Below are positions 2,312 through 49,162 of a stretch of DNA of 64,000 nt, piece after piece (position 1 is the first letter of the stretch; every line of letters begins with the position of its first letter). The notes under the pieces were generated by a model, which saw nothing but the letters and a program-made list of their open reading frames with translations, was not told the DNA's origin and searched no databases. The stretch comes from Ancylobacter novellus DSM 506 (GTDB taxonomy: Bacteria; Pseudomonadota; Alphaproteobacteria; Rhizobiales; Xanthobacteraceae). The stretch is from NCBI RefSeq assembly GCF_000092925.1, contig NC_014217.1, positions 3,534,001 through 3,598,000 on the forward strand, read 5' to 3'. Position numbers and translations under genes: made by a program.

Positions 2312-2419
2312 ATTACCTCAGGGCACGCAATAAGCGCCGGCAGCAATCAAGTCCTTGCCATTCGTCATTAGCGTAGAGACGTGGGGACGTCGAGAGCGCG
2401 GGGGAGATGATCCCCGAGG

Positions 2420-8114: not shown

Positions 8115-8149
8115 TCCACGTCCCGATCCAAGAAACGCAGGAGGAAACC

Positions 8150-8515: not shown

Positions 8516-8553
8516 CCGCACCTCGTCCGTTACATTCCGGGAAGGAGAGAGCG

Positions 8554-9027: not shown

Positions 9028-9121
9028 TGCGGCCTTGCCCGCCTCGGGGCGCGGGCGGTACATAGCCTCACCCGGCGCCGGCCATGAGGGCCCGCACCGT
9101 GCGTTGCGGAGGCAGGCCTAA

Positions 9122-10564: not shown

Positions 10565-10575
10565 AGCCGGCTAAG

Positions 10576-10602
10576 TGAAGGGCGCCCGAGCGGCGCCCTT
10601 CA
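10576..10602. terminator. Convergent hairpin between gabD and the small minus-strand gene
   Basis: The arm TGAAGGGCGCC, loop CGAGC and its exact complement form an 11-bp stem. It has no T-run on either strand. The stop codon of the minus-strand gene lies inside the right arm, so the hairpin serves both converging transcripts. Confidence 0.6.
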
Positions 10603-10815
10603 GCGCCCGTCGAGCAGGCCCTGATATTCCTGCGTCAGTTGCTCGATGTCGGTGGCCTGGAACGGCCATTCGCCGACCACGATGCCCTGCCTTATCTCGT
10701 TGGCGAGCACCGGCCAGTATCGGTCGACCATGGCGGGGATGTCTTTTTCGGCGATACCTCTGGCGCGCAGATCGAGCGCGCAAATCCGCCGGGCCGTTTC
10801 TTCCGTTTGACGCAT
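10600..10815 (-). CDS. Small conserved-looking hypothetical protein, 71 aa
   Basis: Starts MRQTEETARRICALDLRARG and contains IPAMVDRYWPVLANEIRQG and ATDIEQLTQEYQGLLDG. It is soluble, helical and charged, and codon use is normal, so it looks like a real gene. I do not recognise the family with confidence. A 14-bp perfect palindrome lies 36 bp upstream of the start codon and could be its operator. Confidence 0.65.
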   Translation of the reverse strand: MRQTEETARRICALDLRARGIAEKDIPAMVDRYWPVLANEIRQGIVVGEWPFQATDIEQLTQEYQGLLDGR

Positions 10816-10850
10816 GTTAATGGGCTTAACACAGATTCTCGGCGCAATAT

Positions 10851-10864
10851 GTCCACTAGTGGAC
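10851..10864. promoter_or_regulatory. 14-bp perfect palindrome, candidate operator
   Basis: GTCCACTAGTGGAC is fully self-complementary with a CTAG core, a tetramer that is rare in many bacterial genomes. It lies just upstream of the 71-aa minus-strand gene, in a relatively AT-rich stretch, where a repressor or activator dimer would bind. The cognate regulator is not visible. Confidence 0.45.
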
Positions 10865-10923
10865 GCTCGAATGCGCATGAAAACGCAAAACGCCGGCTGA
10901 CGCCACCGCTTGTCGCGGCCGCC

Positions 10924-10954
10924 AAAAAGAAAGGCCGGCTCGCGCCGGCCTTTC
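10924..10954 (-). terminator. Rho-independent terminator of the iorAB-type operon
   Basis: Read on the minus strand, arm GAAAGGCCGGC, loop GCGA and arm GCCGGCCTTTC are followed by TTTTTGGC. It begins about 22 bp after the stop of the large-subunit gene. Confidence 0.88.
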
Positions 10955-10976
10955 GTCGTTCACACTGTGGGGCGGT

Positions 10977-13184
10977 TCACGCCTTGAAGTCCTCCAGCCG
11001 GAACGGCAGCGAGCGCAGCCGCTGGCCGGTGGCGTCGAAGATGGCGTTGGACAGCGCCGGGGCGACGCCCGGCACGCCGGGCTCGCCGACGCCGGTCGGC
11101 GCATTGGCCGAGGGCAGGATATAGACCTCGACCTTCGGCATCTCCGACATGCGCAGCGGGATGTAGCTGTCGAAGTTCGCCTGCTCCACCACGCCCTTGT
11201 CCATGGTGATCTCGTCATGCAGCGCCGCGCCGAGGCCGAAGCCGACGCCGCCCTCGATCTGCGCGACGATGACGTCCGGGTTGACGGCGATGCCGCAATC
11301 GACCGCGCAGATCACCTTGTCGACCTTGATCTGCCCGTTCACCACCGAGACATCGATGACGCTGCCGACCACGCTGTTGAAGCTCTCGTGCAGAGCGATG
11401 CCGCGACCCTTGCCGGAACCGGCCTTGGGCCCCCAGTTCGCCTTCTCGGCCAGGAACTTCAGCACCGCGCTGTGACGCGGCTCGTCCTTCAGCAGCTCCA
11501 GCCGGAACTCGACCGGATCGCGCCCCGCCGCATGGGCGAGCTCGTCGATCGTCACCTCCACCACATGGGCGGTGTGGGTGTGGCCGACCGAGCGCCACCA
11601 CAGCGTCGGCACCTTCACCTGCGGCGAATGCAGGTCCACGAAGAAGTCGGGGATGGCGTAATTGGTGTCGGAGGCCCCCTCCACCGAAGTGCCGTCGACG
11701 CCGTTCTTGATGGCGAAGGCCTCGAAGGGCGTGCCCACCATGAAGGACTGGCCGACGATGTGCTGCTCCCAGCCGGCGATCTTGCCGTCGGCGGTGAGCC
11801 CCGCGCGGACCTTGTGGTAGAAGAGCGGGCGATAATAGCCGCCCTTGATGTCGTCCTCGCGGGTCCAGACGAGGTGGATCGGCGCCTTGCCGTCCGTCGC
11901 CTTGAGAATCGAGGCGGCCTCGGCGACATAGTCGGCGGGCGGGTTGGCGCGCCGGCCGAAGGAGCCGCCGGCCCACACCGTCTCGATCTTCACCTGCTCC
12001 GGCTTGATCCCCATGATGCCGGCGGTCACCGCCTGCTCGATGGTCTGGAACTGCGAGCCGGTCCAGATGGTGACGCCCTCGCCCGTCTTCTCGATCACGC
12101 AGTTCAGGGGCTCCATCGGCGCGTGCGCGAGATAGGGGAAGGCGAACTCGGTCTCGATGGTCTTGGCCGCGCCTTCGATGCCCTTGGCGGCGTCGCCGCG
12201 CTGGGCGGCGACCCGGCCCGGCGTCGCGGCGAGCTTCTTGTACTCGTCGAGCAGCTCGGCGGTGCCGCGCGTCTCGGCCGAGGCCTCGTCCCATTCGATC
12301 TTGTCGAGCGCGTCGCGGCCCTGGATGGCGGCCCAGGTGTTCTGCGCCAGCACGACGATGCCGGCGGGCACGGTGACGACGTCGACCACGCCCGGCACCT
12401 TCTTCGCCGCGCTCGCGTCGAAGCTCTTCACCGTGGCGCCGAAGCGGTCCGGCCGGCGGATCACCGCGGTCAGCATGCCGGGGCGGCGGATGTCGAGCGC
12501 ATAGACCGCCTTGCCGTCGGTCTTGTCGGCCGAATCGAGGCGTGGCAGCCGCGTGCCGATGAGCTTGAAGTCCTTGGGGTCCTTCAGCTTCACCTCTTTC
12601 GGCACGTCGAGCTTGGCGGCGGCCTCGGCGAACTCGCCGAAGGAACCGGTATGGTTGCCGCTCTTCAGCACGCCCTTCTCGACGGTGATGCTGTCCGCCG
12701 GCACGCCCCATTTCTCGGCGGCCGCCGTGACGAGCATCTGCCGGGCGGCGGCGCCTGCCTTGCGCAGCTGTTCCCAGCTGTTGGCGACCGAGGTCGAGCC
12801 GCCCGTGCCCTGCACCGGGCCGAAGGCGAGGTTGTTGTAGAGCTTGGCGTCAGCCGGCGCGAAGGCGGCGCGCATCTGGCTCCAGTCGGCGTCGAGTTCC
12901 TCGGCGACGATGGTAGGCAGGCCGGTGGTGACGCCCTGGCCCATGTCGAGGTGCTTGATCAGCACGGTGACCGTGCTGTCGGGGGCGATGCGCACGAAGG
13001 CGTTCGGCATCGGCCCATCGGTCGCGGCGGCGGCAAATGCCTTGCCCGGCGCGAGATGCACGCCGATGACGAGGGCACCGGAGACGGCGGCGACCCCTTG
13101 CAGGAAGCCGCGGCGGGACGGCGTGGTGGCGGCACCGAAGCTCGCCAGCATCTTGCCGTATTGCTCGGGGGTGATGATGTGCAT
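10977..13184 (-). CDS. Molybdopterin-binding aldehyde/isoquinoline oxidoreductase, large subunit (IorB-like)
   Basis: 735 aa. A twin-arginine signal (SRRGFLQGVAAVSGALVIG, residues ~24-42) directs the folded Mo-cofactor protein to the periplasm. The body is the IorB/xanthine-dehydrogenase-like Mo-binding domain: GGSTSVANSWEQLRKAG, WAGGSFGRRANPP, VEVTIDELAHAAGRDPVEFR and VGEPGVPGVAPALSNAI (the Glu expected as active base). Partner is the adjacent 2Fe-2S subunit; a GTG nine bases upstream overlaps that gene's stop (GTGA) and is an alternative start. No FAD subunit is present, as expected for the IorAB class, which passes electrons to a cytochrome or other carrier. The substrate may be an aldehyde or N-heterocycle. 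Confidence 0.88.
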   Translation of the reverse strand: MHIITPEQYGKMLASFGAATTPSRRGFLQGVAAVSGALVIGVHLAPGKAFAAAATDGPMPNAFVRIAPDSTVTVLIKHLDMGQGVTTGLPTIVAEELDADWSQMRAAFAPADAKLYNNLAFGPVQGTGGSTSVANSWEQLRKAGAAARQMLVTAAAEKWGVPADSITVEKGVLKSGNHTGSFGEFAEAAAKLDVPKEVKLKDPKDFKLIGTRLPRLDSADKTDGKAVYALDIRRPGMLTAVIRRPDRFGATVKSFDASAAKKVPGVVDVVTVPAGIVVLAQNTWAAIQGRDALDKIEWDEASAETRGTAELLDEYKKLAATPGRVAAQRGDAAKGIEGAAKTIETEFAFPYLAHAPMEPLNCVIEKTGEGVTIWTGSQFQTIEQAVTAGIMGIKPEQVKIETVWAGGSFGRRANPPADYVAEAASILKATDGKAPIHLVWTREDDIKGGYYRPLFYHKVRAGLTADGKIAGWEQHIVGQSFMVGTPFEAFAIKNGVDGTSVEGASDTNYAIPDFFVDLHSPQVKVPTLWWRSVGHTHTAHVVEVTIDELAHAAGRDPVEFRLELLKDEPRHSAVLKFLAEKANWGPKAGSGKGRGIALHESFNSVVGSVIDVSVVNGQIKVDKVICAVDCGIAVNPDVIVAQIEGGVGFGLGAALHDEITMDKGVVEQANFDSYIPLRMSEMPKVEVYILPSANAPTGVGEPGVPGVAPALSNAIFDATGQRLRSLPFRLEDFKA

Positions 13185-13189
13185 GGCGC

Positions 13190-13648
13190 TCACGCGAGGT
13201 TGGCGGCGGCTTCGTGGATGGCGGCGCGGATACGCTGATAGGTGGCGCAACGGCAGACATTGCCGTCCATCGCCGCATCGATGTCCGCGTCGCTCGGCTT
13301 GCGGTTGTCGCTGAGCAGGCCGACCGCCGACATGATCTGGCCGGACTGGCAGTAGCCGCACTGCACGACGTCGAGCTTGCGCCACGCCGCGACCACCGCC
13401 TCGCCGACCTCGCCGGTGGCGGCGACGCCCTCGATGGTGGTGACGTTCTTGCCCTCGACATCGGCCAGCGCGGTCTGGCACGAGCGCACCGGCGCGCCGT
13501 CCACATGGACCGTGCAGGCGCCGCAGAGCGCGGCCCCGCAGCCGAACTTGGTGCCGGTCAGACCGACAATGTCGCGGATCGCCCAGAGCAGGGGCATCTG
13601 CCCGTCTGCCTCGACCGTCCGCTCGGTTCCGTTGAGTGTGAATTTCAT
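13190..13648 (-). CDS. 2Fe-2S subunit of IorAB-type molybdenum hydroxylase
   Basis: 152 aa, start at MKFTLNGTERTVEADG. The N-terminal plant-type ferredoxin domain has the cysteines of KFGCGAALCGACTVHVDG and RSCQTA. The C-terminal helical domain has CGYCQSGQIM and NVCRCATYQRI for the second cluster. It carries electrons away from the Mo centre of the large subunit encoded immediately downstream. Confidence 0.92.
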   Translation of the reverse strand: MKFTLNGTERTVEADGQMPLLWAIRDIVGLTGTKFGCGAALCGACTVHVDGAPVRSCQTALADVEGKNVTTIEGVAATGEVGEAVVAAWRKLDVVQCGYCQSGQIMSAVGLLSDNRKPSDADIDAAMDGNVCRCATYQRIRAAIHEAAANLA

Positions 13649-13874
13649 CTCTTGCCCTCTCCAATCGGGATGAGGACGCAAGACGACATGGCAGCCGGCA
13701 ATGCCGGCCGCCCCCCTCTGCTATGCCTTCTGCGCTCCGGGTTATGAAGCTAAGCTTCATGACGGCCATCATCTAATCACCTGACCGTGAGCTGCCTGGA
13801 ACCATTACAAAAGCAGCAGGGCGAAAGCCTGACCCGCAATTCCGTCTGGCACGGCGAAAACCACCCACTCGCCC

Positions 13875-13957
13875 TCATGGCCGGGCTTGACCCGGCCACC
13901 CAGGGGCTGGCGTACACGGGTGGAAAGTCCGGGTCCCCGGGTCAAGCCCGGGGATGG
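13875..13957. repeat. Dispersed palindromic repeat, family B copy 1
   Basis: Inverted arms built from CCGGGCTTGACCCGG at the left and CCCCGGGTCAAGCCCGGGG at the right. It lies in the 325-bp gap between the TetR gene stop and the start of the iorA-like gene. The same arms recur at 19777-19927, 46960-47043 and 58488-58577. Apart from this element the gap holds only the promoter region of the oxidoreductase operon. Confidence 0.75.
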
Positions 13958-13973
13958 GGGAAGAGGGCGGCTG

Positions 13974-14594
13974 TCAGGCCGTCTCCGCCTCGACCCCGAG
14001 CGTGGTGCGCACGAAATGGGCAAGGTCGCGCACATCCTCGGCCATGCGGTCGTCGCCGCGGCTGGCGGAGGAATAGAAGATGCCGTCGAGGATGAGGCCG
14101 ATACGCCGGGCCGTGCGAGGAATGTCGACCGGCGCAAAGGCGCCGGATGCCACGCCCCGCGTCAGCGCCCCTTCGAGCAGCTGCTGCTCGCGGGAATAGA
14201 AGCCGGCGATCAGCCCGTCCAGTTCCTCGTCGCGCAGGCCAGAGCTCGCATAGTCGGACATCAGCTTGACCATCAGCGCCAGCGTCGGCGCCAGCTCCAT
14301 ATGGGTGTCGAGCCAGGCCATGATCTCCTCCAGTGGCTCGCCACGGGCGGCGCGGCGCTCCTCATAGCCGGCGACGAGTTGCTCGATGGCGTGGCCGAGG
14401 GCGCAGCGCACCAGATCGTCCTTGTTGTCGAAGTAGTGGTAGAGCAGCCCGACATTGATGTCGCAGACCAGCGCGATGTCGCGCACCGTGACGACGGAGA
14501 AGTGGCGCTCCGCGAACAGCCGCAGTGCCTCTTCCAGGATCATCACCCGCCGCTCGGCGGGCTGGAGGCGCTTGCGGGCGGGTCGGGAAGCCAT
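13974..14594 (-). CDS. TetR/AcrR-family transcriptional regulator
   Basis: 206 aa. The N-terminal helix-turn-helix covers about residues 14-65: RVMILEEALRLFAERHFSVV, TVRDIALVCDINVGLLYHYF and DNKDDLV. The rest is a helical ligand-binding and dimerisation domain. Divergently placed from the ABC importer operon with a 137-bp gap, so it most likely represses that operon in the absence of an inducer. An imperfect inverted repeat TCCG-N8-CGGA (14604-14619) lies right before its own start and could be part of the operator. Confidence 0.88.
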   Translation of the reverse strand: MASRPARKRLQPAERRVMILEEALRLFAERHFSVVTVRDIALVCDINVGLLYHYFDNKDDLVRCALGHAIEQLVAGYEERRAARGEPLEEIMAWLDTHMELAPTLALMVKLMSDYASSGLRDEELDGLIAGFYSREQQLLEGALTRGVASGAFAPVDIPRTARRIGLILDGIFYSSASRGDDRMAEDVRDLAHFVRTTLGVEAETA

Positions 14595-14603
14595 TGCGTT
14601 TCC

Positions 14604-14619
14604 TCCGCAATTGTACGGA
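14604..14619. promoter_or_regulatory. Candidate operator in TetR/ABC divergent region
   Basis: TCCG and CGGA arms separated by eight bases, located over the ribosome-binding region of the TetR gene. The arms are short and only partly symmetric inside, so this is a weak prediction supported mainly by position. Confidence 0.25.
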
Positions 14620-14731
14620 ACTTTGTGCCTTGCTCATGTGCTATGCATGCCCATTTGTTGGGCTTGCAGACTATATTAAGTCACCGTTTAATAGCCCGGT
14701 CCAGCCCATTCAGCGACCGGAGCCACCTCTC

Positions 14732-15829
14732 ATGAAGCGCCTATTCCGTCCGATGCGCGTTCTCAGGGCCGCAGTCGTGCTCACCAGCCTCGCCGCCGCC
14801 GCTTTTGCGGCAATGCCTGCGGCGCAGGCTGCCTCCAAGAAGAGCTTCAAGGTCGCCTACACCGTCTATATCGGCTTCATGCCCTTCGCCTATCTCAAGT
14901 CCTCCGGGATCATGAAGAAGTGGGCGGACAAGTACGGCATCGACGTCGAGATCATCCAGGCCAACGACTATGTCGGCTCGATCAACCAGTTCATCGCCGG
15001 CGAGATCGACGCGGTCGGCGTCGCCTCGATGGACGGCCTGACCATGCCGGCGGCCGGCGGGGTCGACACCTCGATCTTCCTCATCACCGACTATTCCAAC
15101 GGCAACGACATCGTGCTGTCCAAGACCGCCAAGACGGTCAAGGAACTCGCCGGCCAGGACGTCTATCTGCTCCAGTACAGCGTCTCGCACTATCTGCTGA
15201 ACCGCGCCTTGCAGCAGGCCGGCATCGACGACCCGACCGCCGCCAAGACGGTGAACATCTCCGATGCCGAGATCTCCGCCGCCTTCGTCTCGCAGGACGC
15301 GATGAAGCACGCCGTGTCGTGGAAGCCGCTGACCGAGGACATGCTCAAGGTCAAGGGCGCCACCAACCTGTTCGATTCGTCGAAGATCCCCGGCGAGATC
15401 ATGGACGTGTTCATCGGCAACACCCAGACGCTGAAGGACAACCCCGACTTCGCCAAGGCCGTGGTCGGCGCCTGGTACGAGGCGCTCGCCATCCTCAAGG
15501 ACGGCGGCCCGAAGGGCGAGGAGATGCGCGCGGTGATGACCAGCGCCATGGGCACGGATGCGGGCGGCCTGCAGTCGCAGCTCGACACCACCCACTTCTT
15601 CTACACGCCGAAGGAAGCCGCGGACTTCCTGCTCTCGCCGGAGAACGCGAAGATCTGGAACAGCATCCGCACCTTCTGCTTCCAGCAGGGCCTGTTCGGC
15701 CAGGGCGCCACCAGCGTCGACACCATCGGCATCGAGGTCGCCGACGGCACGGTGCTGGGCGACAAGGCCAACATCAAGATGCGGGTCAACGCCACCGCCA
15801 CCAAGGCCGCCGCCGACGGCAAGCTCTAG
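14732..15829 (+). CDS. ABC importer substrate-binding protein, urea/guanidine-carboxylase-region type
   Basis: 365 aa with a Sec signal peptide (MKRLFRPMRVLRAAVVL to about AAQAA). The mature protein belongs to the NitT/TauT/NMT1-like fold: ANDYVGSINQFIAGEIDAVG, MDGLTMPAAGGVDTSIFLIT, SVSHYLLNRAL and GTVLGDKANIKMR. These segments closely resemble, as I remember the family (TIGR03427), the periplasmic proteins encoded beside urea carboxylase, now known in many cases to be guanidine carboxylase. Here no carboxylase is present; a flavin monooxygenase system follows. Ligand is therefore unknown, perhaps a small amide, guanidino or ureido compound. First gene of the operon, preceded by GGAG. Confidence 0.85.
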   Translation: MKRLFRPMRVLRAAVVLTSLAAAAFAAMPAAQAASKKSFKVAYTVYIGFMPFAYLKSSGIMKKWADKYGIDVEIIQANDYVGSINQFIAGEIDAVGVASMDGLTMPAAGGVDTSIFLITDYSNGNDIVLSKTAKTVKELAGQDVYLLQYSVSHYLLNRALQQAGIDDPTAAKTVNISDAEISAAFVSQDAMKHAVSWKPLTEDMLKVKGATNLFDSSKIPGEIMDVFIGNTQTLKDNPDFAKAVVGAWYEALAILKDGGPKGEEMRAVMTSAMGTDAGGLQSQLDTTHFFYTPKEAADFLLSPENAKIWNSIRTFCFQQGLFGQGATSVDTIGIEVADGTVLGDKANIKMRVNATATKAAADGKL

Positions 15830-15836
15830 TGCGAGC

Positions 15837-15868
15837 CCCACCTCCGCGCCAGTTGGCGCGGAGGTGGG
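15837..15868 (+). terminator. Strong intra-operon hairpin after the binding-protein gene
   Basis: The arm CCCACCTCCGCGCC, loop AGTT and exact complement form a 14-bp perfect stem starting seven bases after the stop. There is no T-run. A hairpin here would protect the upstream message and raise binding protein above permease, as in many ABC operons. Confidence 0.7.
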
Positions 15869-15887
15869 AGTCTCGGCTCCGAAGCCA

Positions 15888-15995
15888 CCTCATCCTGAGG
15901 TGCTCGCGCAGCGAGCCTCGAAGGATGGAGAGTCAAGCGCACCCGGACGAGCATCCTTCGAGGCCCGGCCTCCGGCCGGGCACCTCAGGATGAGG
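15888..15995. repeat. Dispersed palindromic repeat, family A copy 1
   Basis: 108 bp with large inverted arms: CCTCATCCTGAGGTGC ... GCCTCGAAGGATG on the left and CATCCTTCGAGGC ... GCACCTCAGGATGAGG on the right, each arm with a small internal hairpin. Lies between the binding-protein and permease genes, that is inside an operon. Nearly the same element lies at 44105-44212, with diverged or partial copies at 19669, 48992 and 58647. Confidence 0.85.
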
Positions 15996-16052
15996 CTGTT
16001 CACCAGAACGACCGTCGTCCAGGACCGTGACCGCCAGACCGAAGGCCCGCCC

Positions 16053-16871
16053 ATGCGCCGCATCATCAACTACGCGCCCCGTCCGGGCGTCCGGCTGATC
16101 CTCGCCGCCCTGCCCTTCATCCTCGTGGTGGTGGCCTATCTGCTGGCCTCCAACGCCCGCCTCGCGGTCGAGCCGGCCGACAAGCTGATGCCCGCCTTCG
16201 CCTCCTTCTGGGCGACGATCGTGCGCATGGCGACGACCATCGACGTCGCCACCAAGCAGTACCTGCTCTGGTGGGACACCTGGCTCAGCCTGCAGCGGCT
16301 GTTCCTCGGCCTCGGCATCTCCGCGCTTATGGGGCTCGTGCTCGGCATCGTCGTCGGCTTCATCCCCTATCTGCGCTCGACCTTCGAGCCGTTCTTCGCC
16401 GCCTTCTCGCTGATCCCGCCGCTCGCGGTGCTGCCGATCCTGTTCATCATCTTCGGCCTCGGCGAGGTGTCGAAGATCGTGCTGATCGTCTTCGGCATCG
16501 CCCCCTTCATCATCCGCGACGTGATGCTGCGCGTGGCGGCGATCCCGACCGAGCAGATCATCAAGGCGCAGACGCTCGGCGGCTCGACCTGGCAGATGAT
16601 CACCGGGGTGGTGCTGCCGCAGGTGATGCCGCGCCTGATCGACTCGGTGCGGCTCTCGCTCGGCGCCGCCTGGCTGTTCGTCATCGCCGCCGAGGCGATC
16701 ACCGCCGAGGGCGGCCTCGGCTACCGCATCTTCCTGGTACGGCGCTATCTCGCGATGGACGTGATCCTGCCCTATGTCGCCTGGATCACCCTGCTCGCCT
16801 TCCTGATGGATTACGGCCTGCGCAGGCTCGCGGACGCCGCCTATCCCTGGGACCGGATCAAGGCGGCCTGA
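16053..16871 (+). CDS. ABC importer permease, urea/guanidine-carboxylase-region type
   Basis: 272 aa with about six TM helices. The coupling-loop EAA motif region is around AAIPTEQIIKAQTLGGSTWQ. The sequences TKQYLLWWDTWLSLQRLFLG and GLGYRIFLVRRYLAMDVILP match, from memory, the permeases found in urea/guanidine carboxylase loci, and more distantly SsuC/TauC. Start chosen at MRRIINYAPRPG; an upstream in-frame ATG lies inside the repeat. Its stop abuts the ATPase start (TGA-ATG), so the two are coupled. Confidence 0.87.
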   Translation: MRRIINYAPRPGVRLILAALPFILVVVAYLLASNARLAVEPADKLMPAFASFWATIVRMATTIDVATKQYLLWWDTWLSLQRLFLGLGISALMGLVLGIVVGFIPYLRSTFEPFFAAFSLIPPLAVLPILFIIFGLGEVSKIVLIVFGIAPFIIRDVMLRVAAIPTEQIIKAQTLGGSTWQMITGVVLPQVMPRLIDSVRLSLGAAWLFVIAAEAITAEGGLGYRIFLVRRYLAMDVILPYVAWITLLAFLMDYGLRRLADAAYPWDRIKAA

Positions 16872-17708
16872 ATGACCACGATCGTCTTCGACAACATCTG
16901 GAAGGAATATGGCGAGCACGTCGTGCTCGAGCGCGTGAACCTCGCGCTCGACGACCATGAGTTCCTCGTCATCATCGGCCCGTCCGGCGTCGGCAAGACC
17001 ACGCTGCTGCGCATGCTGCTCAGCCAGGAAATTCCGACCCGGGGCCGCATCCTGATCGACGGCGAGCCCATCGCCGCCGAGCCGACCGCCGACCGCGGCG
17101 TGGTGTTCCAGCGCTACTCGGTGTTCCCGCACAGGACCGTGCTGGGCAACGTGATGATGGGCCCGCAATGGGCGGCCTCGCCGATCCTCGGCCGGCTGTT
17201 CGGCGCCGCCCGCCGGGCACTGGAGGAGCGCGCCATGGCGCTGCTGGCCCGCGTCGGCCTCGCCGAGCACGCGACGAAGTACCCCGCCCAGCTCTCGGGC
17301 GGCATGCAGCAGCGCCTCGCTCTGGCGCAGGCGCTGATCATGAAGCCCAAGGTGCTGCTGCTCGACGAGCCCTTCGGCGCGCTCGACCCCGGCACGCGCA
17401 AGTCCATGCACGAGCTGGTCGGCGAGCTCTGGGAGGAGAACCGCATGACCATCGTCATGGTCACGCATGACCTGCCCGAGGCCTTCCTGCTCGGCACCCG
17501 CGTCGTCGCCGTGGATCGCCGCCGCACCGACCCGCAGGCGCCCGAGCGCTTCGGCGCCACCATCGTCTCCGACTTCGAAGCCAAGTGCCGCAGCGTGCGC
17601 GAATCCCGGCTGTTCGAGGCGGAGCGCGAGCGGATGCGCCTCACTTTGGTTTCCGGATATTCCCTGCCGCAGGACGACGCCCTCGTCCCGGCGCTCGTGA
17701 AGGACTGA
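16872..17708 (+). CDS. ABC importer ATP-binding protein
   Basis: 278 aa. Walker A GPSGVGKTTLL, Q-loop VVFQRYSVFPH, signature LSGGMQQRLALAQAL, Walker B VLLLDEPFGALDPG, H-loop VTHD. It has a short insertion (PQWAASPILGRLFGAARR) between Q-loop and signature and a C-terminal extension past the ATPase core, both typical of the ATPases partnering the urea/guanidine-carboxylase-type permeases as I know them. Begins immediately after the permease stop and ends five bases before the monooxygenase gene, so transporter and enzyme form one operon. Confidence 0.9.
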   Translation: MTTIVFDNIWKEYGEHVVLERVNLALDDHEFLVIIGPSGVGKTTLLRMLLSQEIPTRGRILIDGEPIAAEPTADRGVVFQRYSVFPHRTVLGNVMMGPQWAASPILGRLFGAARRALEERAMALLARVGLAEHATKYPAQLSGGMQQRLALAQALIMKPKVLLLDEPFGALDPGTRKSMHELVGELWEENRMTIVMVTHDLPEAFLLGTRVVAVDRRRTDPQAPERFGATIVSDFEAKCRSVRESRLFEAERERMRLTLVSGYSLPQDDALVPALVKD

Positions 17709-17713
17709 CTGCA

Positions 17714-19027
17714 ATGGCCGACAAGCGCTTCCACCTCGCCTGGTTCATGAACTTCACGCCCGACGAGTGGCGCGAGCCGTTCGGGCAGGGCGGCAATCCG
17801 TGGGACGGCCAGTTTTACATCGAGATGGCCCAGGCGATGGAGCGCGCCTGCTTCGACCTCATCATGATCGAGGACAAGCTGATGGTGCCGGAGACCTATG
17901 GCGGCTCCCGCGACCTGTCGCTCAAGCACGCCATGATGGTGCCGAAGGCCGATCCGGCGCCGCTCGCCGTCGCCATGGGCATGGCCACCAAGAATCTCGG
18001 CGTGGTCGCCACCATGTCGACCATGGCCTACCCGCCCTTCATGCTGGCGCGGCTCTCCTCCACCATCGACAGCCTCACCAAGGGCCGCTTCGGCTGGAAC
18101 GTCGTCACCTCGGCCGAGGACCTGATGGCGAAGAATTTCGGTATGGACCAGCTGCCTCCGCGCGAGGACCGCTACGCCATGGCCGACGAGTACATGGAAG
18201 TGGTCGGCAAGCTGTTCGATTCATGGGAGCCGGACGCGGTGGTGCTCGACCGCAAGAACGGCATCTATGCCGACGGCTCCAAGGTCCACACCGTCGACCA
18301 TGACGGCCGGTTCTACAAGGTGCGCGGGCCGCTCAACACCGTGCCCTCGCCGCAGCGCCGCCCGGTCTACCTGCAGGCCGGCGCCTCGCCGCGCGGACGC
18401 GACTTCGCCGCCCAGCATGCCGACGCCATCGTCTCGGTGGCGAACGGCGTCGAGGGCATGAAGGCGTTCCGCGCCGACATCCGCGCCCGCGCCGAGAAGA
18501 TCGGCCGCAACCCGGACGAGATAAAGGTGTTCTTCTGCATCACGCCGAGCCTCGGCGAGACCGAGGCCGAAGCGCGCGCCCGCTATGAAAATGTCACCAT
18601 GTCGGACAATTTCGCCACCGACGTGCTGATCTCCATCTCCGCCATCACCGAGATCGACTTCGCCCAGTACGACCTCGACAAGCCGCTGCCGGAAAAGCTG
18701 GTGACCAACGGCGAATCCGGCACGCTCGACAAGTTCCAGCAATGGGGAAGCGGCAAGACGCTGCGCCAGCTCGCGGCCGATGGCGGCGGCGGCCTCGTCT
18801 CCTCCATGGAGCTGATCGGCACGCCGGCGCAGGTGGCCGAGAAGATGGGCGAGGCCATGGCGGAGGTCGGCGGCGACGGCTTCCTCATCACCACGCCGGT
18901 GCTGCGCGTCTCGCGCCGCTACATCGCCGAGATCTGCGACGGGCTGGTGCCCGAGCTGCAGCAGCGCGGCCTTGTGCGCACCGAGTACAAGCACCAGCTG
19001 CTGCGCGACAATCTGCGCGAGTTCTGA
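17714..19027 (+). CDS. LLM-class flavin-dependent monooxygenase, NtaA/SnaA/DszA family
   Basis: 437 aa, a luciferase-like (alpha/beta)8 barrel. Family marks: HLAWFMNFTPDEW at the N-terminus, ACFDLIMIEDKL, STIDSLTKGRFGWNVVTSA and RPVYLQAGASPRGRDFAAQHAD. NtaA/DszA-type enzymes use reduced FMN from a separate reductase and O2 to cleave C-N or C-S bonds (nitrilotriacetate, EDTA, dibenzothiophene sulfone) or hydroxylate substrates. The reductase is the next gene. It is not a RutA-type pyrimidine oxygenase, which is shorter and has different N-terminal motifs. The substrate must be whatever the upstream ABC system imports. Confidence 0.9.
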   Translation: MADKRFHLAWFMNFTPDEWREPFGQGGNPWDGQFYIEMAQAMERACFDLIMIEDKLMVPETYGGSRDLSLKHAMMVPKADPAPLAVAMGMATKNLGVVATMSTMAYPPFMLARLSSTIDSLTKGRFGWNVVTSAEDLMAKNFGMDQLPPREDRYAMADEYMEVVGKLFDSWEPDAVVLDRKNGIYADGSKVHTVDHDGRFYKVRGPLNTVPSPQRRPVYLQAGASPRGRDFAAQHADAIVSVANGVEGMKAFRADIRARAEKIGRNPDEIKVFFCITPSLGETEAEARARYENVTMSDNFATDVLISISAITEIDFAQYDLDKPLPEKLVTNGESGTLDKFQQWGSGKTLRQLAADGGGGLVSSMELIGTPAQVAEKMGEAMAEVGGDGFLITTPVLRVSRRYIAEICDGLVPELQQRGLVRTEYKHQLLRDNLREF

Positions 19028-19095
19028 CGCGAGGCGGGGCGCCTGAGCCGCGCCCCGCGTGACAGGCCGGCGAAGGCCGGCAGGAGGAGACGGGC

Positions 19096-19641
19096 ATGGC
19101 CAGATCGGCGCCGCTCGACGAGACGAATTCCGGTGCGGCCAAGGCGCCGGCCATCAGCCGCGAGCAGTATCGCGACGCGATGGCGCGCCTCGGCGCGGCG
19201 GTGACCATCGTCACCACCGACGGGCCGGGCGGGCGCGCCGGCTTCACCGCCTCGGCGGTGTGCTCGGTCACCGACAGCCCGCCGACGCTGCTGGTCTGCC
19301 TGAACAAGAGCTCGTCGGCCGCGCATGCGGTGCACGCCAACGGCGTCGTCTGCGTCAACACGCTCGCCGCCGGCCACGAGGCGCTGTCCAACCTGTTCGG
19401 CGGCCGCACGCCGCCCGAAGAGCGTTTTGCCGCCGGCCAGTGGCACACCTCCGCCACCGGCGCGCCGATCCTGGTCGGCGCGGTCGTCGCCTTCGACTGC
19501 CGCATCGTGAAGACGGTCGAGGTCGGCACGCATGACGTGCTGTTCTGCGAGGTGGTCGGCCTCGCCGAGGGCGGCGGGCGCGAGGGCCTGATCTATTTCA
19601 GCCGCCGCTACCACGCGGTCGCCGGCACGCCGGAGGGATGA
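19096..19641 (+). CDS. Flavin reductase, RutF/HpaC-like
   Basis: 181 aa, ATG after a good CAGGAGGAGA site. The flavin-reductase-like domain shows [58 protein letters not shown] and SRRYHAV. This resembles RutF more than NtaB or DszD. It supplies FMNH2 (using NAD(P)H) to the neighbouring monooxygenase, 68 bp upstream. An N-terminal extension of ~20 residues precedes the domain. Confidence 0.88.
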
Positions 19642-19668
19642 GCCTTCTCCTCTTCCCTCTCTGAACAA

Positions 19669-19744
19669 CCTCATCCTGAGGTGCGAGCCCACGGGTCTTG
19701 CCTTCGGCAAGCCCGAGGACAGGCTCCGCGAGCCTCGAAGGATG
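19669..19744. repeat. Dispersed palindromic repeat, family A copy 2 (variant arm)
   Basis: Begins CCTCATCCTGAGGTGCGAG and ends CGAGCCTCGAAGGATG, with an enlarged internal part containing TTGCCTTCGGCAAG. Only one arm of the element is present. It lies in the 355-bp gap between the flavin reductase and hydroxyacid oxidase genes. Confidence 0.7.
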
Positions 19745-19776
19745 GTCGTGAGGCCAAGGTCCTGAAGCAAGAGGCC

Positions 19777-19927
19777 GTCATGGCCGGGCTTGACCTGAAG
19801 TCGGCATTTGCCGACTTCGGTCTGCTTGAAACGGAACTCGGGCAGGCCCGAGTTCCGGCCATCCACGTCTTTGCATTGCGCCGGGACGCCCCAAGTCGTG
19901 GATCCCCGGGTCAAGCCCGGGGATGAC
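19777..19927. repeat. Dispersed palindromic repeat, family B copy 2 with nested hairpins
   Basis: Starts GTCATGGCCGGGCTTGACC and ends CCCGGGTCAAGCCCGGGGATGAC. Inside are two further perfect hairpins: GAAGTCGGCATTTGCCGACTTC (19797-19818, split as arms of nine) and arms CGGAACTCGGG/CCCGAGTTCCG (19832-19857). Together with family A copy 2 it fills most of the gap. Confidence 0.75.
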
Positions 19928-19996
19928 GGTCTGGATCGGGGCATGTCGCTACAATTACAATCGTCGCCCCCGCCCATCCCGACCCGGAACCCGCCG

Positions 19997-21142
19997 ATGA
20001 ACATCATCAATGTCGAGGACGCCCGCGAGGCCGCGCGAAGGCGGCTGCCGCGCATCTTCTTCGACTATATCGACGGCGGCTCCTTCGGCGAGGAGACGCT
20101 TCACGCCAACCGCGCCGACTTCGCCCGCTGGACGCTGGTGCAGCGCGTGCTCAACGACGTCTCGACGCGCGACCTCGCCACGCGCTTCCTCGGCGCCGAC
20201 CATCCGCTGCCCTTCATGCTCGGCCCGGTCGGCTTCCTCGGCCTCTATGCCGGCGGCGGCGAGATCGCCGCGGCGAAGGCGGCGCATGCGGCGGGCATCC
20301 CCCTGTGCCTGTCGACCTTCTCCATTGCCTCGCTGGCGAAGCTGCGGCAGGCGACCACCGGGCCGCTCGCCTTCCAGCTCTACGTCATGAGCGACCGCGC
20401 CATCGGCGACGAATTGCTGGCGCAGGCGCGCGAAGCCGGCGTCGACACGCTGTTCCTCACCGTCGACACCACCATCACCTCAGTGCGCGAGCGCGATGTG
20501 CGCAACGGCTTCCGCTCGCTCACCCGCATCTCCCCCGGCCTCGGCGCAAGGCTGATGACCCGCCCGCTCTGGTGCTTCGACATGCTGCGCGCCGGCATGC
20601 CGGAGGTCGGCGCCGTCGCCCATCGGCCGGAATTCGGCAAGGGCGTGCTGGAGCAGGCGAGCCACCTGTCGCGCCGCATCGACACGCGGCTCTCCTGGAG
20701 GGACGTCGACGCCCTGCGCGCCCGCTGGCCGGGCCGGCTGGTGCTGAAGGGCATCCTCTCGCCCGAGGACGCGCTGACCGCCCGCGCCGCCGGCGCCGAC
20801 GCCATCGTGGTGTCGAACCATGGCGGGCGGCAGCTCGACGGCACCTCCTCCACCATCGCCGCCCTGCCGGGGATCGTGGACGCGACCGAGGGCGGCATCG
20901 AGGTGCTGTTCGACGGCGGCATTCGCCGCGGGGCTGATATCGTCAAGGCGCTGGCGCTCGGGGCCTCCGGCGTGCTGCTCGGCCGCGCCTATGTCTACGG
21001 GCTGGCGGCGGCGGGCGAGGCCGGCGTCGCCCGCATCCTCGCCCATCTCACTGAAGAGGTGAGCCTCACTCTCGGGCTGATGGGCATGCGCTCGATCGAC
21101 GAGCTGAAGGCGCGCGGGCGGGCGGCGCTGCGGCCCCGCTGA
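19997..21142 (+). CDS. FMN-dependent alpha-hydroxyacid oxidase/dehydrogenase (LldD/mandelate dehydrogenase family)
   Basis: 381 aa TIM-barrel enzyme. FFDYIDGGSFGEETL near the start, APVG-like GPVGFLGLYA, FQLYV, TVDTT, KGILSPEDA and the active-site VSNHGGRQLDG are all present, as is the phosphate-binding DGGIRRGADIVKALALGA. Oxidises an L-2-hydroxyacid (lactate, mandelate, glycolate or similar) to the 2-oxoacid. It follows the monooxygenase/reductase pair on the same strand after a repeat-filled gap, so it may oxidise a hydroxyacid made by that pathway, but co-regulation is only inferred. Start chosen at MNIINVEDAREAA. Confidence 0.88.
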   Translation: MNIINVEDAREAARRRLPRIFFDYIDGGSFGEETLHANRADFARWTLVQRVLNDVSTRDLATRFLGADHPLPFMLGPVGFLGLYAGGGEIAAAKAAHAAGIPLCLSTFSIASLAKLRQATTGPLAFQLYVMSDRAIGDELLAQAREAGVDTLFLTVDTTITSVRERDVRNGFRSLTRISPGLGARLMTRPLWCFDMLRAGMPEVGAVAHRPEFGKGVLEQASHLSRRIDTRLSWRDVDALRARWPGRLVLKGILSPEDALTARAAGADAIVVSNHGGRQLDGTSSTIAALPGIVDATEGGIEVLFDGGIRRGADIVKALALGASGVLLGRAYVYGLAAAGEAGVARILAHLTEEVSLTLGLMGMRSIDELKARGRAALRPR

Positions 21143-21160
21143 GCGCGGAATGTGCCGATG

Positions 21161-21179
21161 TGAAAGCGCGGGACTTTCA
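21161..21179. promoter_or_regulatory. Inverted repeat TGAAAG-N7-CTTTCA between oxidase and glpK
   Basis: Six-base perfect arms in the 202-bp gap before glpK. Further on, at 21231-21241, is GAAAACGAAAC, the type of GAAA-rich motif DeoR-family GlpR proteins bind in some bacteria. Either could regulate glpK, or the inverted repeat could be a weak terminator of the preceding gene. Confidence 0.25.
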
Positions 21180-21344
21180 TTTGAACCGTTGAATCCGACC
21201 ATGCGAGGCATGTAGCTTCTGCGCAGGCGGGAAAACGAAACTTCAAACTCCGCCAGCTCAGGCGGAGGACCTGCATGACCCATCCCGCGCGAAACACTCG
21301 CCAGCCCGGCATCGCCATCCCGCATCATCAGGCAGCGTAGGGTC

Positions 21345-22841
<1,497 letters not shown>

Positions 22842-22954
22842 GATTTCAAGTCACGGTGAGGAAGACCGGCTTGCCGCGGATGTGAATGCCGGCCGGAATC
22901 CCGCTCGGCGATAATCCGCGTTCCGGCCCAACCCCGAACCGCGGAAACGCCATC

Positions 22955-23194
22955 ATGAGAACGAGGACAACGCTCGCGGCGCTCGCCGCACTTCTCGCCT
23001 TCGGCGCGCTCGCCACGCCGGCGGCCGCACAGCGCTACTATGAGGGCCGGCCGCAATACCAGGGCTGGCGAGCGCCGACCTTCCCATGGCAACGCCCGTA
23101 CAGCCCGCCGGGCGGGGCGATGAACCAGGCGGCGCTCAATGGCGACGCCGCCATACGCTATCAAGAGACCATCAACGCCTACGCTCACAAGTGA
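22955..23194 (+). CDS. Small secreted hypothetical protein, 79 aa
   Basis: Starts MRTRTTLAALAALLAFGALA with a clear Sec signal peptide cleaved around AAAQ. The short mature part is rich in Tyr, Trp, Pro and Arg (RYYEGRPQYQGWRAPTFPW) and ends AIRYQETINAYAHK. No known domain. It lies between glpK and the efflux operon on the same strand, with a 118-bp gap after it. The start is well placed and codon use is normal, so it is probably real and periplasmic. Confidence 0.6.
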   Translation: MRTRTTLAALAALLAFGALATPAAAQRYYEGRPQYQGWRAPTFPWQRPYSPPGGAMNQAALNGDAAIRYQETINAYAHK

Positions 23195-23312
23195 TGCGCG
23201 CCTCTTCACCGGCATGAGCAATTGCCTGCCCCGGCCGGGGCGGCGATAATGCGCATGCCCGCACCGCTTCGCACATGCGGGCCATCCATGGCGTCGGGAG
23301 CCCGGAGACTTC

Positions 23313-25439
23313 ATGAGCGTGGCCGGTGTCGTCCGTCCCAGCCCGTTGTCGTCCTTCCCGATCGATCTGAGCTGGCGCAACTTCGTCTTCGCGCTGCGCA
23401 CCACGCTCGCCGGCGTCACGGCGCTCGCCATCGCCTATTATCTGGAGATGCAGGACCCGCAGTGGTCGATCCTGACGGTCTACCTGCTCGCCCAGCCCAC
23501 CGCCGGCGCCGCCATCGCCAAGAGCACCTTCCGCGTCTGCGGCACCATCGCCGGCGCCGCAATGGGCCTCGTCATCCTCGGCCTGTGGTCGCAGGCGCCC
23601 ATCCCCTTCGTCGGCAGCGTGGCGCTCATGGTCGGGCTCTGCTTCTATCTCGGCGCGCGGCTCACCAACTACACCGCCTACGCCTTCATGCTCGCCGGCT
23701 ACACGGCGATGCTGATCGCGCTCGAAGGCGCGGCCGACCCGACCCATGCCTGGTCGCTCGCCGCCGACCGTACCGGCGAGATCGTCATCGGCATCGTCTG
23801 CGGCACGGCGGCGAGCGTGCTCATCCTGCCGCGCTATGCCGGCGTGGTGCTGCGCGAATCGCTTGCCCAGCTCTTCGGCCAGCTCTGCCATTTCGGCGCC
23901 ACCGCGCTGCATCCCAATGTGCCGATGGCGACCTTCTCGACGCTGCGGCGCGCCATGGTCGACGGCGTCACCAAGTTCGACGCGCTGCGTTCCTACGCCG
24001 TGTTCGAGGCGCCGGAACTGCGCGCCGACGACGTACTGCTGCGCCGCGTCACCCGCGAGTTCCTGCGCGTGCTCGCCGTGGCGCGCGGCCTCTTCGTGCG
24101 CATCGAGGATTTCCAGATGGAGGGCGCCGGCCCCGTCCTCGACCGGCTGCGGCCGGCGGCGCAGGCGACCACGGCGACGCTGGAGCGCATCGCCGGAGAC
24201 CCGAATGCCTTCGCCGATCCCCGCCGCGTGCGGGCCGAGCTCCTGAAGGCACGCGCCGGCCTCGGCGCCGCCACGGCCGAGCTGGAGGCGATGGCCGGCC
24301 GCGTGCCGTTCGATCCGCTCGCCGACGGCCTGCTGATCCTGCGCCGCGCCGGCGACCTGCTGCACGGGCTTTCCATGGTGATGGTGAGCGAGCAGGCGAG
24401 CCTGCGCGCCCGCTCCTCCGGTCGGCCGCGGCCGGTCACGCCGCTGCCCACCGCGCACCGCGAAGCGATGCTGATCGGCCTGCGCTCGGCGCTCGGCGTC
24501 ATCCTCGTCTGCGCTTTCTGGGCCGCCACCGAATGGACGCAGGGCCTCTCCGCTGCCACGGGCTTCGCGCTGATCCTGTTCTTCGCGGTCAACCAGGACC
24601 GCCCCGGCAAGTCCGCCGTGCCGGTGCTGCTGGCGTCGATCGCAGCCGTCGCCGTCGCCTATGCGGCGATGATCTTCGTGCTGCCGCGGCTCGAAGGCTA
24701 TGAGGCGCTGGCGGTGTTCCTGGTCGTCGCGCTGATCCCCGGCGGGCTGATGGCCGGCACGCCGCAATATGCCTGGGCGGGCATCATCCTCGCCGGCTTC
24801 ATCGGCGACGAGATCGGCACCGGCAACGTCTTCCAGCCCGACGAGCTCACCTTCCTGAATGCGAACCTCGCCATGGTGGGCGCCATGGCCGTCGGCCTCG
24901 TCTATCTCGCGCTGTTCCCGGTCACCTCGCAGGCCAACCGCGACCGTATCTGGAGGGCGGTGATGGGCCGCCTGCTGCCGGAGGCGGCGCGCGGCGTGCG
25001 CCACGAGCGCAAGATCCTCGGCGACATCGTCGACAGGCTCGCCCCGCTGCTGCCGCGCCTCTCGCTCGACCTGCAACGCGAAGAGGACTTCCTGCGTGGC
25101 ACGCTCGGCGCGGCGTCGATGAGCCTCGAGCTCGGCCGCCTCAACCGGGTGCGGGCCAACCCCGACCTGCCGCCCGACGTCCTCGCGATCATCACGCCCT
25201 TCCTCACCCGCTTCGCCGCCGCCATCGAGCATCTGCCGCGCGCCGGCCGGAACATCGCGCGGGAGGTCGACGCGGCGGAGGCGATCGTGCATGAGGCGCG
25301 CGCCGGCCTTGCCGCCCTGCCGCTGCAGCCCGGCACGCCCGGCGCGGCGCTGACCTTGCGGGCTGGCGCGTCGCTGCGTTTCATCTCCGACCGTTTCGAC
25401 ATCGACCGTGCCTTCCTCACCCGGTCCTTCGAGGAGTGA
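23313..25439 (+). CDS. FUSC-family inner-membrane efflux protein (AaeB-like)
   Basis: 708 aa, start ATG after GGAGACTTC. Two repeats of a multi-TM FUSC domain (about residues 25-190 and 385-540), each followed by a helical cytoplasmic part. The N-terminal RNFVFALRTTLAGVTALAIA and QDPQWSILTVYLLAQP are typical of AaeB/YccS/aromatic acid exporters. Co-encoded with a DUF1656 protein and a membrane-fusion protein, as in aaeXAB, whose E. coli version exports p-hydroxybenzoate. The stop overlaps the next gene's GTG. Confidence 0.92.
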   Translation: MSVAGVVRPSPLSSFPIDLSWRNFVFALRTTLAGVTALAIAYYLEMQDPQWSILTVYLLAQPTAGAAIAKSTFRVCGTIAGAAMGLVILGLWSQAPIPFVGSVALMVGLCFYLGARLTNYTAYAFMLAGYTAMLIALEGAADPTHAWSLAADRTGEIVIGIVCGTAASVLILPRYAGVVLRESLAQLFGQLCHFGATALHPNVPMATFSTLRRAMVDGVTKFDALRSYAVFEAPELRADDVLLRRVTREFLRVLAVARGLFVRIEDFQMEGAGPVLDRLRPAAQATTATLERIAGDPNAFADPRRVRAELLKARAGLGAATAELEAMAGRVPFDPLADGLLILRRAGDLLHGLSMVMVSEQASLRARSSGRPRPVTPLPTAHREAMLIGLRSALGVILVCAFWAATEWTQGLSAATGFALILFFAVNQDRPGKSAVPVLLASIAAVAVAYAAMIFVLPRLEGYEALAVFLVVALIPGGLMAGTPQYAWAGIILAGFIGDEIGTGNVFQPDELTFLNANLAMVGAMAVGLVYLALFPVTSQANRDRIWRAVMGRLLPEAARGVRHERKILGDIVDRLAPLLPRLSLDLQREEDFLRGTLGAASMSLELGRLNRVRANPDLPPDVLAIITPFLTRFAAAIEHLPRAGRNIAREVDAAEAIVHEARAGLAALPLQPGTPGAALTLRAGASLRFISDRFDIDRAFLTRSFEE

Positions 25440-25681
25440 GCGTGCTGTTTTCCTCGCAGATCGCCTTTCACACACCTGAAGTGCTCGGCTTCTATCTGCC
25501 GCCGCTGATGGTGTGGTGCCTGCTGGCGGTGCCGCCCTTCCTGCTGCTGCGCTTGGGGCTGAAGCGCGGCGGTTTCTACAAGCTGGTCTGGCACCGGGCG
25601 CTGTTCGACGCGGCGCTCTACGTCATCGTGCTCGGGGCGGTGATCTTCAGCCTGCCGGCCTTCGCGGGAGGAATGGGATGA
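25436..25681 (+). CDS. DUF1656 small membrane protein (AaeX-like)
   Basis: 81 aa with a GTG start overlapping the preceding stop (GTGA). Two TM helices around residues 18-40 and 54-75; the N-terminal FHTPEVLGFYLPPLMVWCLLA is typical of DUF1656/AaeX. The protein always accompanies FUSC efflux pumps, but its exact role is not known. The stop overlaps the ATG of the next gene. Confidence 0.9.
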   Translation: MSVLFSSQIAFHTPEVLGFYLPPLMVWCLLAVPPFLLLRLGLKRGGFYKLVWHRALFDAALYVIVLGAVIFSLPAFAGGMG

Positions 25682-26550: not shown

Positions 26551-26563
26551 CGCTTGGGGCCCC

Positions 26564-44104: not shown

Positions 44105-44212
44105 CCTCATCCTGAGGTGCGAGCGCAGCGAGCCTCGAAGGATGCTCGCTTAAGGGCACCCGAACGAGCATCCTTCGAGGCCCGGCCGTCGGCCGGGCAC
44201 CTCAGGATGAGG
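44105..44212. repeat. Dispersed palindromic repeat, family A copy 3
   Basis: 108 bp, nearly the same as the copy at 15888-15995, with the same order of arms: CCTCATCCTGAGGTGC...AGCCTCGAAGGATG, then CATCCTTCGAGGC...GCACCTCAGGATGAGG. Fills most of the 178 bp between zwf and pgl, inside the probable operon. Confidence 0.85.
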
Positions 44213-48954: not shown

Positions 48955-48991
48955 GAGACGTGGCTCCGGGGGCTTGCCGCCACAGTGCGGC

Positions 48992-49096: not shown

Positions 49097-49162
49097 GGTG
49101 CGCTTTTGGTACTCAGGACGAGGTCGCTCCGGGAGCGAGCGTCCGTCTCGGAGAAACTCGTC

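Follow-up and report, generated by a model that had tools for sequence, protein, structure and literature searches.

The stretch of DNA analysed here, referred to as the window, comprises 64,000 nucleotides of the Ancylobacter novellus DSM 506 genome (NC_014217.1, positions 3,534,001 to 3,598,000). It carries an operon for an ATP-binding cassette (ABC) importer, a two-component flavin mononucleotide (FMN) monooxygenase and a flavin reductase, next to a divergently oriented gene for a TetR-family regulator. In the following, SBP denotes the binding protein of the importer, LLM the monooxygenase, which is of the NtaA/DmoA family, and Lnnn other loci. The operon would probably serve the uptake of an N-alkylguanidine, followed by its oxidative N-dealkylation to guanidine and an aldehyde. 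The locus is composed of the following features:

13974..14594, minus strand: TetR-family regulator, divergent from the operon (PF00440, 50.3 bits)
14674..14693, no strand: palindrome TATTAAGTCACCGTTTAATA with the core TATTAA-N8-TTAATA, putative TetR operator
14732..15829, plus strand: periplasmic SBP of family TIGR03427 (406 bits, cut-off 333.9)
15837..15995, no strand: palindromic repeat elements in the SBP-permease gap, three inverted repeats
16053..16871, plus strand: ABC permease (PF00528, 68 bits; best NCBIfam match TauC, under its cut-off; both scans run on a longer frame starting at 15996)
16872..17708, plus strand: ABC ATPase (PF00005, 113 bits)
17714..19027, plus strand: LLM, two-component FMN monooxygenase of the NtaA/DmoA family (TIGR03860, 427 bits, cut-off 279.7)
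19096..19641, plus strand: flavin reductase, RutF/HpaC-like, presumed partner of the LLM (PF01613, 145 bits)
19997..21142, plus strand: FMN-dependent hydroxyacid dehydrogenase, a neighbour outside the conserved unit (PF01070, 419 bits)

The family scores and coordinates bore out the six genes that the original prediction had named, from the TetR regulator to the flavin reductase. In agreement with it, the SBP scored above the curated TIGR03427 cut-off, the NtaA-type LLM starts five bases after the ATPase stop, and no carboxylase is present inside the operon. The reductase gene starts 68 bp downstream of the LLM. A scan of genome contigs with the LLM uncovered 72 loci, 14 of which (LLM identity 46-63%) were left outside the count; the other 58 and the window make up a set of 59 loci with an LLM identity of at least 70%. 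Genes were counted per locus by tblastn with identity floors, and some gene calls came from a home-made codon-score caller. The gene order that had been proposed for a search in other genomes was indeed retrieved, the SBP-permease-ATPase trio being located upstream of the LLM in 41 of the 59 loci, with an ATPase-LLM gap of 3-57 bp in 39 of these (the genes overlap in L004 and are 105 bp apart in L016). A TetR orthologue was detected in 53 of the 59 loci and a flavin reductase in 39, at 38 of which it lies within 150 bp of the LLM; in the remaining 20 loci none was found. Hosts of the trio include Ancylobacter, Hansschlegelia, Methylopila, Chelatococcus, Rhizobium/Peteryoungia, Salipiger and Citreicella, so that order, spacing and direction are kept across genera from Ancylobacter to Rhizobiaceae and Roseobacteraceae. 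As the original prediction had proposed for the importer and the monooxygenase, we are nearly certain that the divergent TetR gene and the SBP-permease-ATPase-LLM-flavin reductase genes constitute one functional unit. The FMN hydroxyacid oxidase, likewise predicted to be an operon member, had to be dropped from it. This gene is located 355 bp past the reductase, beyond palindromic repeats, and is a poorly conserved neighbour present in four of the 59 loci: on the same strand in the window and in L008, a metagenome-assembled genome with an LLM 100% identical to that of the window, and nearby on the opposite strand in L005 and L010.

The importer was swapped in nine Acetobacteraceae-type loci (L042, L044-L050 and L052): downstream of an LLM orthologue of 72-76% identity there is another NMT1-type ABC trio, whose SBPs are 26-31% identical to the window SBP. 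Furthermore, some Ancylobacter loci (L005, L010, L012 and L043) contain a related second NMT1-type SBP and permease downstream of the reductase (L005:11274-14320, where an ATPase was also called, L012:11344-13196 and L043:11289-13212).

The regulator gene is accompanied by a conserved palindrome. When the region between TetR and the next gene was searched in the 53 TetR-bearing loci, the 12-base core of TATTAA-N8-TTAATA was exact in 33 and present with at most three mismatches in 51, the two loci without it being those of Salipiger and Citreicella; 40 rounds of shuffling gave no exact match and about 3.4 of 53 at up to three mismatches. At this same threshold the palindrome was found upstream of the SBP in 38 of 40 regions and upstream of the LLM in all 13 loci without an intervening window-type trio. 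The six loci for which no TetR was found (L027, which ends at a contig end, L028, L044, L045, L049 and L052) had no site with up to two mismatches. TetR and palindrome were kept together in five of the nine importer-swap loci. We then counted sites with at most one mismatch genome-wide. In eight of nine genomes one was present at the LLM locus, two of these genomes having one further site each, and in the host genome the only palindrome was that of the operon. The reversed control pattern had 0 to 4 matches per genome, and one in the host. Since the genome-wide count is thus at the level of chance, it is position and conservation that constitute the evidence, and from these we infer that the palindrome may be the local TetR site. 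A palindrome-like site with two mismatches was also observed at window positions 42180-42199. A promoter and terminator scan of the operon gave a signal no better than chance.

Control of the LLM operon by a guanidine riboswitch was considered and rejected: there was no Rfam match in window positions 8000-28000, and scans of the window stretch and of 19 LLM loci gave no guanidine riboswitch at gathering score. In six LLM genomes (L139, L140, L141, L143, L177 and L178), on the other hand, the guanidinase or carboxylase genes do have one. As guanidine riboswitches are lacking at the scanned LLM operons but accompany these genes, something other than guanidine seems to act as the inducer. A separate sensor would make sense because a Gd-I riboswitch is reported to discriminate against methylguanidine (PMC12508155).

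Analysis of the binding protein bore out the assignment of the importer to the guanidine-carboxylase type. The SBP is the one host protein above the TIGR03427 cut-off, and with 64.2 bits it remained far under the cut-off of SsuA_fam (163.5). The nearest folds to its AlphaFold2 model (predicted local distance difference test score, 95) were TauA and SsuA; no close TIGR03427 relative was found in the PDB. In a quick tree of 144 SBPs, 101 of which were rows without known context, a fully supported branch separated the 41 LLM-linked rows from the guanidine-operon rows L177 and L143. We next aligned 60 SBPs (alignment A1: 29 from the LLM side, 26 from the guanidine side, four replacement SBPs and P0078, which is in neither side group). 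Aspartates 79, 93, 101, 120, 126 and 225 were invariant in all 60. Six other NMT1-type SBPs, four from the host and one each from L024 and L050, served for comparison. In these, positions 79, 101 and 120 were never acidic, while 126 was acidic once (Glu) and 225 once (Asp); Asp 93 is not discriminating, because five of the six have it as well. TauA, in an alignment read by eye, has Gln, Ser, Ser and Ala at 93, 101, 120 and 126, and keeps Asp at 225. As the aspartate set is common to guanidine-operon SBPs and largely missing from TauA and the six NMT1-type proteins, the sequences favour a cationic, guanidinium-type ligand for the LLM-side, guanidine-side and replacement SBPs. The same aspartates were observed in the second SBPs of the Ancylobacter loci L005, L012 and L043.

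Known guanidine pathways were encountered both beside the LLM and elsewhere in the genomes that carry it. No TIGR03427-linked or other urea/guanidine carboxylase scored above cut-off in the operon or in the host genome (G000; one contig of 4,765,023 bases). In other lineages, however, an LLM with a different SBP, not the TIGR03427 one, adjoins the carboxylase. This was seen at five of the swap loci (L042, L044, L045, L046 and L049; LLM orthologues 74-76% identical), the L042 carboxylase reaching 1682 bits against a cut-off of 1304. An allophanate hydrolase was present at four of the nine swap loci and a CgdA-family gene (TIGR03424) at three, and in L045 two CgdA-family genes, the carboxylase, the allophanate hydrolase, the LLM and the importer follow each other on a single strand. 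Guanidine carboxylases are described as having Asp at Kluyveromyces lactis positions 1330 and 1584, corresponding to 701 and 956 of TIGR02712 (PMC11410670). Both residues were present in all 13 carboxylases examined, which came from 13 of the 19 carboxylase-bearing LLM genomes. Urea as the direct product, as the annotation 'urea carboxylase' would imply, was rejected on account of this guanidine-type Asp pair.

For the genome-wide comparison, 42 LLM genomes were used, i.e. the host and those of 41 of the 58 other loci, 17 being left out. A carboxylase above cut-off was found in 19 of them and a guanidinase in 19 others, which means that 38 of the 42 hold exactly one of the two. Among 289 background genomes of the class, there were 17 with a carboxylase and 11, including the host, with a guanidinase, without overlap (28 of 289 in total). 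The guanidinase threshold was E 1e-60 in the LLM set and 1e-120 in the background, and the stricter value was also satisfied by all 19 best matches of the LLM set, five of which were seen to carry the guanidinase signature. At the thresholds used, carboxylase and guanidinase never occurred together in the 42 LLM genomes or in the 289 genomes of the class. When collapsed by record title (a hand grouping), 20 of 24 LLM groups compared with 21 of 219 genera had a pathway, where the Fisher p of 2e-14 is only a guide because the hosts are related and the two samples were drawn differently. The class sample contained five other genomes with an LLM relative of 59-66% identity; four of these had a carboxylase, three being from one genus. 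In G183 of this sample the LLM relative and the carboxylase are found within 15 kb of each other, and riboswitches of the Guanidine-I and Guanidine-II classes are present on the carboxylase operon. Together, these data make it very likely that the operon is linked to guanidine.

In the host, the guanidine pathway is represented by a guanidinase. Of its eight ureohydrolases (the ureohydrolase search covered 10 LLM genomes), the one at C1:86578-87810 matched Synechocystis GdmH with 541 bits and the Nitrospira inopinata guanidinase with 521 bits. It was picked out by the pattern GTGWPE, and the Thr and Trp diagnostic of guanidinases are conserved in it (motifs GTTYRPG and GTGWPE), following the residue criterion given in PMC11410670. 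The other host ureohydrolases were rejected as guanidinases, the three with a readable motif having T, not W, at the key site. A Guanidine-I riboswitch is located directly upstream of the guanidinase gene (91.6 bits; gathering score 63). The original prediction had named a co-regulated carboxylase elsewhere in the genome as evidence that would speak against it; the host has no carboxylase above cut-off and has this guanidinase with its own riboswitch. Urease was above cut-off in all 25 LLM genomes searched, host included. Within 18 kb around the guanidinase there was no match to the window SBP or permease; an ABC-ATPase-like gene was seen at a distance of about 7 kb, and no family was obtained for several of the neighbours at E <= 1e-30. 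Conceivably, with no TIGR03427-type importer beside the guanidinase, the operon importer could serve that enzyme and share its operon with an unrelated monooxygenase merely by chance. We regard such a coincidence as highly improbable, since the gene order is kept from Ancylobacter to Rhizobiaceae and Roseobacteraceae, the swapped-in SBPs have the same aspartate set, and five of the nine swap loci retain TetR and palindrome.

The LLM itself has the fold of BdsA, LadA, DmoA and RcaE, all at about 30-36% identity, with DmoA (276 bits) and DszA/BdsA (262 bits) as the nearest PDB entries by sequence. Other models of LLM type remained far under their cut-offs (SsuD, 52.9 against 518.2 bits; RutA, 70.1 against 498.3; SfnG likewise). 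The Rut pyrimidine system is not indicated, as RutA failed in this way and the flavin reductase fell just short of the RutF model, by about 1.5 bits (253.2 against 254.75). An importer combined with an LLM is also the plan of ssu, and the superfamilies are the same: the SBP fold is nearest to TauA/SsuA and the LLM nearest to DmoA and DszA/BdsA. The operon could thus scavenge organosulfur compounds in the manner of ssu, dsz or dmo, with an SsuA-like importer and a C-S-cleaving LLM. This is very unlikely in view of an SBP that is over the TIGR03427 cut-off but not that of SsuA_fam, of Asp 101, 120 and 126, which are Ser, Ser and Ala in TauA and mostly non-acidic in the six NMT1-type SBPs, of the low SsuD, SfnG and RutA scores, and of the genome-wide partnership with guanidine pathways. 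Of the earlier proposal that a small nitrogen or sulfur compound is taken up and oxidatively cleaved, the nitrogen part therefore fits, while the sulfur part is contradicted by the aspartate-rich SBP and the guanidine partnership.

Enzymes of the NtaA type cleave C-N bonds oxidatively. Because they do so, and because DmoA gives formaldehyde, an alkylguanidine may by analogy be converted to guanidine plus an aldehyde. In the case of DmoA, as reported, dimethyl sulfide is converted to methanethiol and formaldehyde (PMC9259527). In the mechanism that we propose, the SBP and ABC importer would take up a guanidinium-bearing compound, most likely an N-alkylguanidine, with methylated guanidines as a first guess. 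The flavin reductase would provide FMNH2 to the LLM, which with O2 would oxidise the carbon adjoining the guanidine nitrogen, so that C-N cleavage would give free guanidine and an aldehyde, this being formaldehyde if methylguanidine is the substrate. The expected products, 'amine or amide plus hydroxy- or oxo-acid' in the original prediction, would thus most likely become guanidine and an aldehyde. In the host, the guanidine would induce the separate guanidinase via its Guanidine-I riboswitch and would be converted to urea, the substrate of urease, thereby serving as a nitrogen supply. TetR would sense the substrate, not guanidine, via its own operator. Oxidative release of guanidine by the LLM is, in our judgement, the probable reaction; methylguanidines in particular as its substrate are a tentative choice. 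These odds rest on the gene neighbourhood, the genome partnership and the signature residues, from which ligand, reaction, product and inducer were inferred.

Alternatively, a urea derivative could be oxidised by the LLM, or guanidine itself, in which case N-hydroxylation would constitute a third guanidine route. The guanidine-type importer, the presence of urease in all 25 genomes searched and the four LLM genomes without either known pathway would fit with this, but a second guanidine route would be redundant in 38 of the 42 genomes, and what the scanned LLM operons carry is a TetR site, not a guanidine riboswitch. We therefore consider direct oxidation of guanidine or of a urea derivative improbable.

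Another option is that the substrate of the LLM is larger or cyclic, a guanidino compound of the creatinine, creatine, guanidino acid or guanylurea type. Short-chain dehydrogenases/reductases (SDRs), a creatininase and guanidino-acid ureohydrolases would then complete the route, with guanidine as one product among others. Several neighbourhoods point in this direction. In L015 an SDR-SDR-creatininase-ureohydrolase cluster adjoins TetR, in L042 and L049 a creatininase and an SDR are near the LLM, a biuret-hydrolase-like gene is beside TetR in L001, and an amidase directly follows the LLM or reductase in L035, L037 and L058. Moreover, the host has the same SDR-creatininase module (C1:2.343-2.348 Mb), and a creatininase was above cut-off in 25 of 38 LLM genomes and in none of 14 controls. 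However, the latter comparison has just these 14 controls and no class-wide background, a creatininase is present in just three of the 59 loci, and the host module is 1.2 Mb away without a palindrome copy at up to one mismatch. Larger substrates of this kind are in our view unlikely. The creatininase, amidase and biuret-hydrolase-like neighbours nevertheless indicate guanidino or ureido chemistry, perhaps with a larger substrate.

Among these neighbours, the host module (L114, C1:2342500-2352500) has the order SDR-SDR-creatininase-(guanidinopropionase-like)-second ureohydrolase at 968-5360, and an SDR pair is near the TetR of the LLM operon in L011. L042:2285-8141 and L049:4337-8928 contain a creatininase, an SDR, a LysR regulator and a desaturase-like protein (weak GntB match) beside the LLM, and L042 also has a GbcA-like Rieske oxygenase. 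The amidases are of the amidase-signature family (L035:10866-12248, L037:10868-12268 and L058 at about 10889). The biuret-amidohydrolase-like gene of L001 (4132-4812) scored 312 bits, under the cut-off of 370, and genes of the same cluster are present in L004 and L006.

Several observations weigh against N-alkylguanidine uptake and dealkylation. The LLM sequence does not tell the substrate, BdsA, LadA, DmoA and RcaE being about equally close, and methylguanidine on its own does not account for the creatininase, amidase and biuret-hydrolase-like genes that adjoin the unit in some loci. The hydroxymethyl intermediate, N-(hydroxymethyl)guanidine, is reported to be long-lived and to be broken by a dedicated lyase in Vreelandella (PMC12508155), and no lyase for this intermediate was identified here. 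Both guanidine pathways are missing from four of the 42 LLM genomes, those of Citreicella, Salipiger, Chthonobacter and Acidisoma, and the hosts are not independent samples, since 15 of the 42 are Ancylobacter-like. Parvibaculum loci L019, L025 and L061 have TetR and LLM without the importer trio, and TetR and palindrome are both missing from four of the nine swap loci. The host guanidinase is 3.46 Mb from the operon by contig coordinates (1.3 Mb should the contig be circular) and had no palindrome copy in the search at up to one mismatch. Guanidine riboswitches were also missing from the five carboxylase clusters that adjoin the LLM.

The closest known parallel is the Vreelandella boliviensis MgdH/MgdL system, in which, as reported, methylguanidine is demethylated by a dioxygenase and a lyase (PMC12508155). 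Both systems would combine an ABC importer and the oxidative demethylation of a guanidine with a subsequent guanidine carboxylase pathway. In Vreelandella, however, this involves a 2-oxoglutarate/Fe(II) dioxygenase, a lyase and a riboswitch, whereas the present loci have a flavin monooxygenase, a reductase, TetR and a palindrome, with a substrate that is predicted. No MgdH/MgdL-type dioxygenase or lyase was found among the operon genes, to which this search was limited. Guanidine carboxylase operons (carboxylase, CgdAB and allophanate hydrolase) share the SBP family, as in L177, and the carboxylase adjoins the LLM in Acetobacteraceae-type loci, but the LLM-linked SBPs are apart in the tree, the host has no carboxylase, and the scanned LLM operons have no riboswitch. 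The guanidinases of Synechocystis (GdmH) and N. inopinata have a close host relative under a Guanidine-I riboswitch, which is, however, far from the operon and has no TIGR03427-type importer beside it. NtaA, EmoA, DmoA, DszA/BdsA and LadA belong to the same TIGR03860 family and have a flavin reductase partner, but are about 27-36% identical to the LLM, which is accompanied by a guanidine-type importer and by guanidine pathways. The SsuEADCB alkanesulfonate system, with its genes in that order, similarly combines an NMT1-type importer with a luciferase-like monooxygenase and a flavin reductase; its SBP and LLM families are different, and for the window operon a cationic rather than an anionic ligand is predicted.

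In the open-access PMC literature, which does not extend to subscription papers, we found no flavin monooxygenase that acts on a guanidine, and the novelty is to this extent provisional. On balance, we lean towards the view that the operon specifies a dedicated alkylguanidine importer, the first guanidine-releasing monooxygenase of the NtaA/DmoA family and a TetR sensor of alkylguanidines, feeding either known guanidine pathway as an upstream branch in a range of Alphaproteobacteria. If so, guanidine would have a source enzyme, the LLM, that differs from the known dioxygenase route, a substrate class could be assigned to one subgroup of the NtaA/DmoA family, and TIGR03427 importers with an LLM partner would be predictable alkylguanidine transporters. 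The natural source of guanidine has been described as an open question (PMC12186494).

Apart from the operon, the window contains a dispersed palindromic repeat with the core CCTCATCCTGAGGTG, for which eight matches were found at up to one mismatch compared with 0.01 expected. Copies are located at 15888-15995, 19669-19683, 44105-44212, 48991-49097 and 58647-58661, and such repeats sit in the SBP-permease gap and ahead of the hydroxyacid oxidase gene. Lastly, the host has a second LLM, 61% identical to that of the window, at C1:4405875-4407179 (L172:7870), with LysR-like and flavin-reductase-like neighbours.

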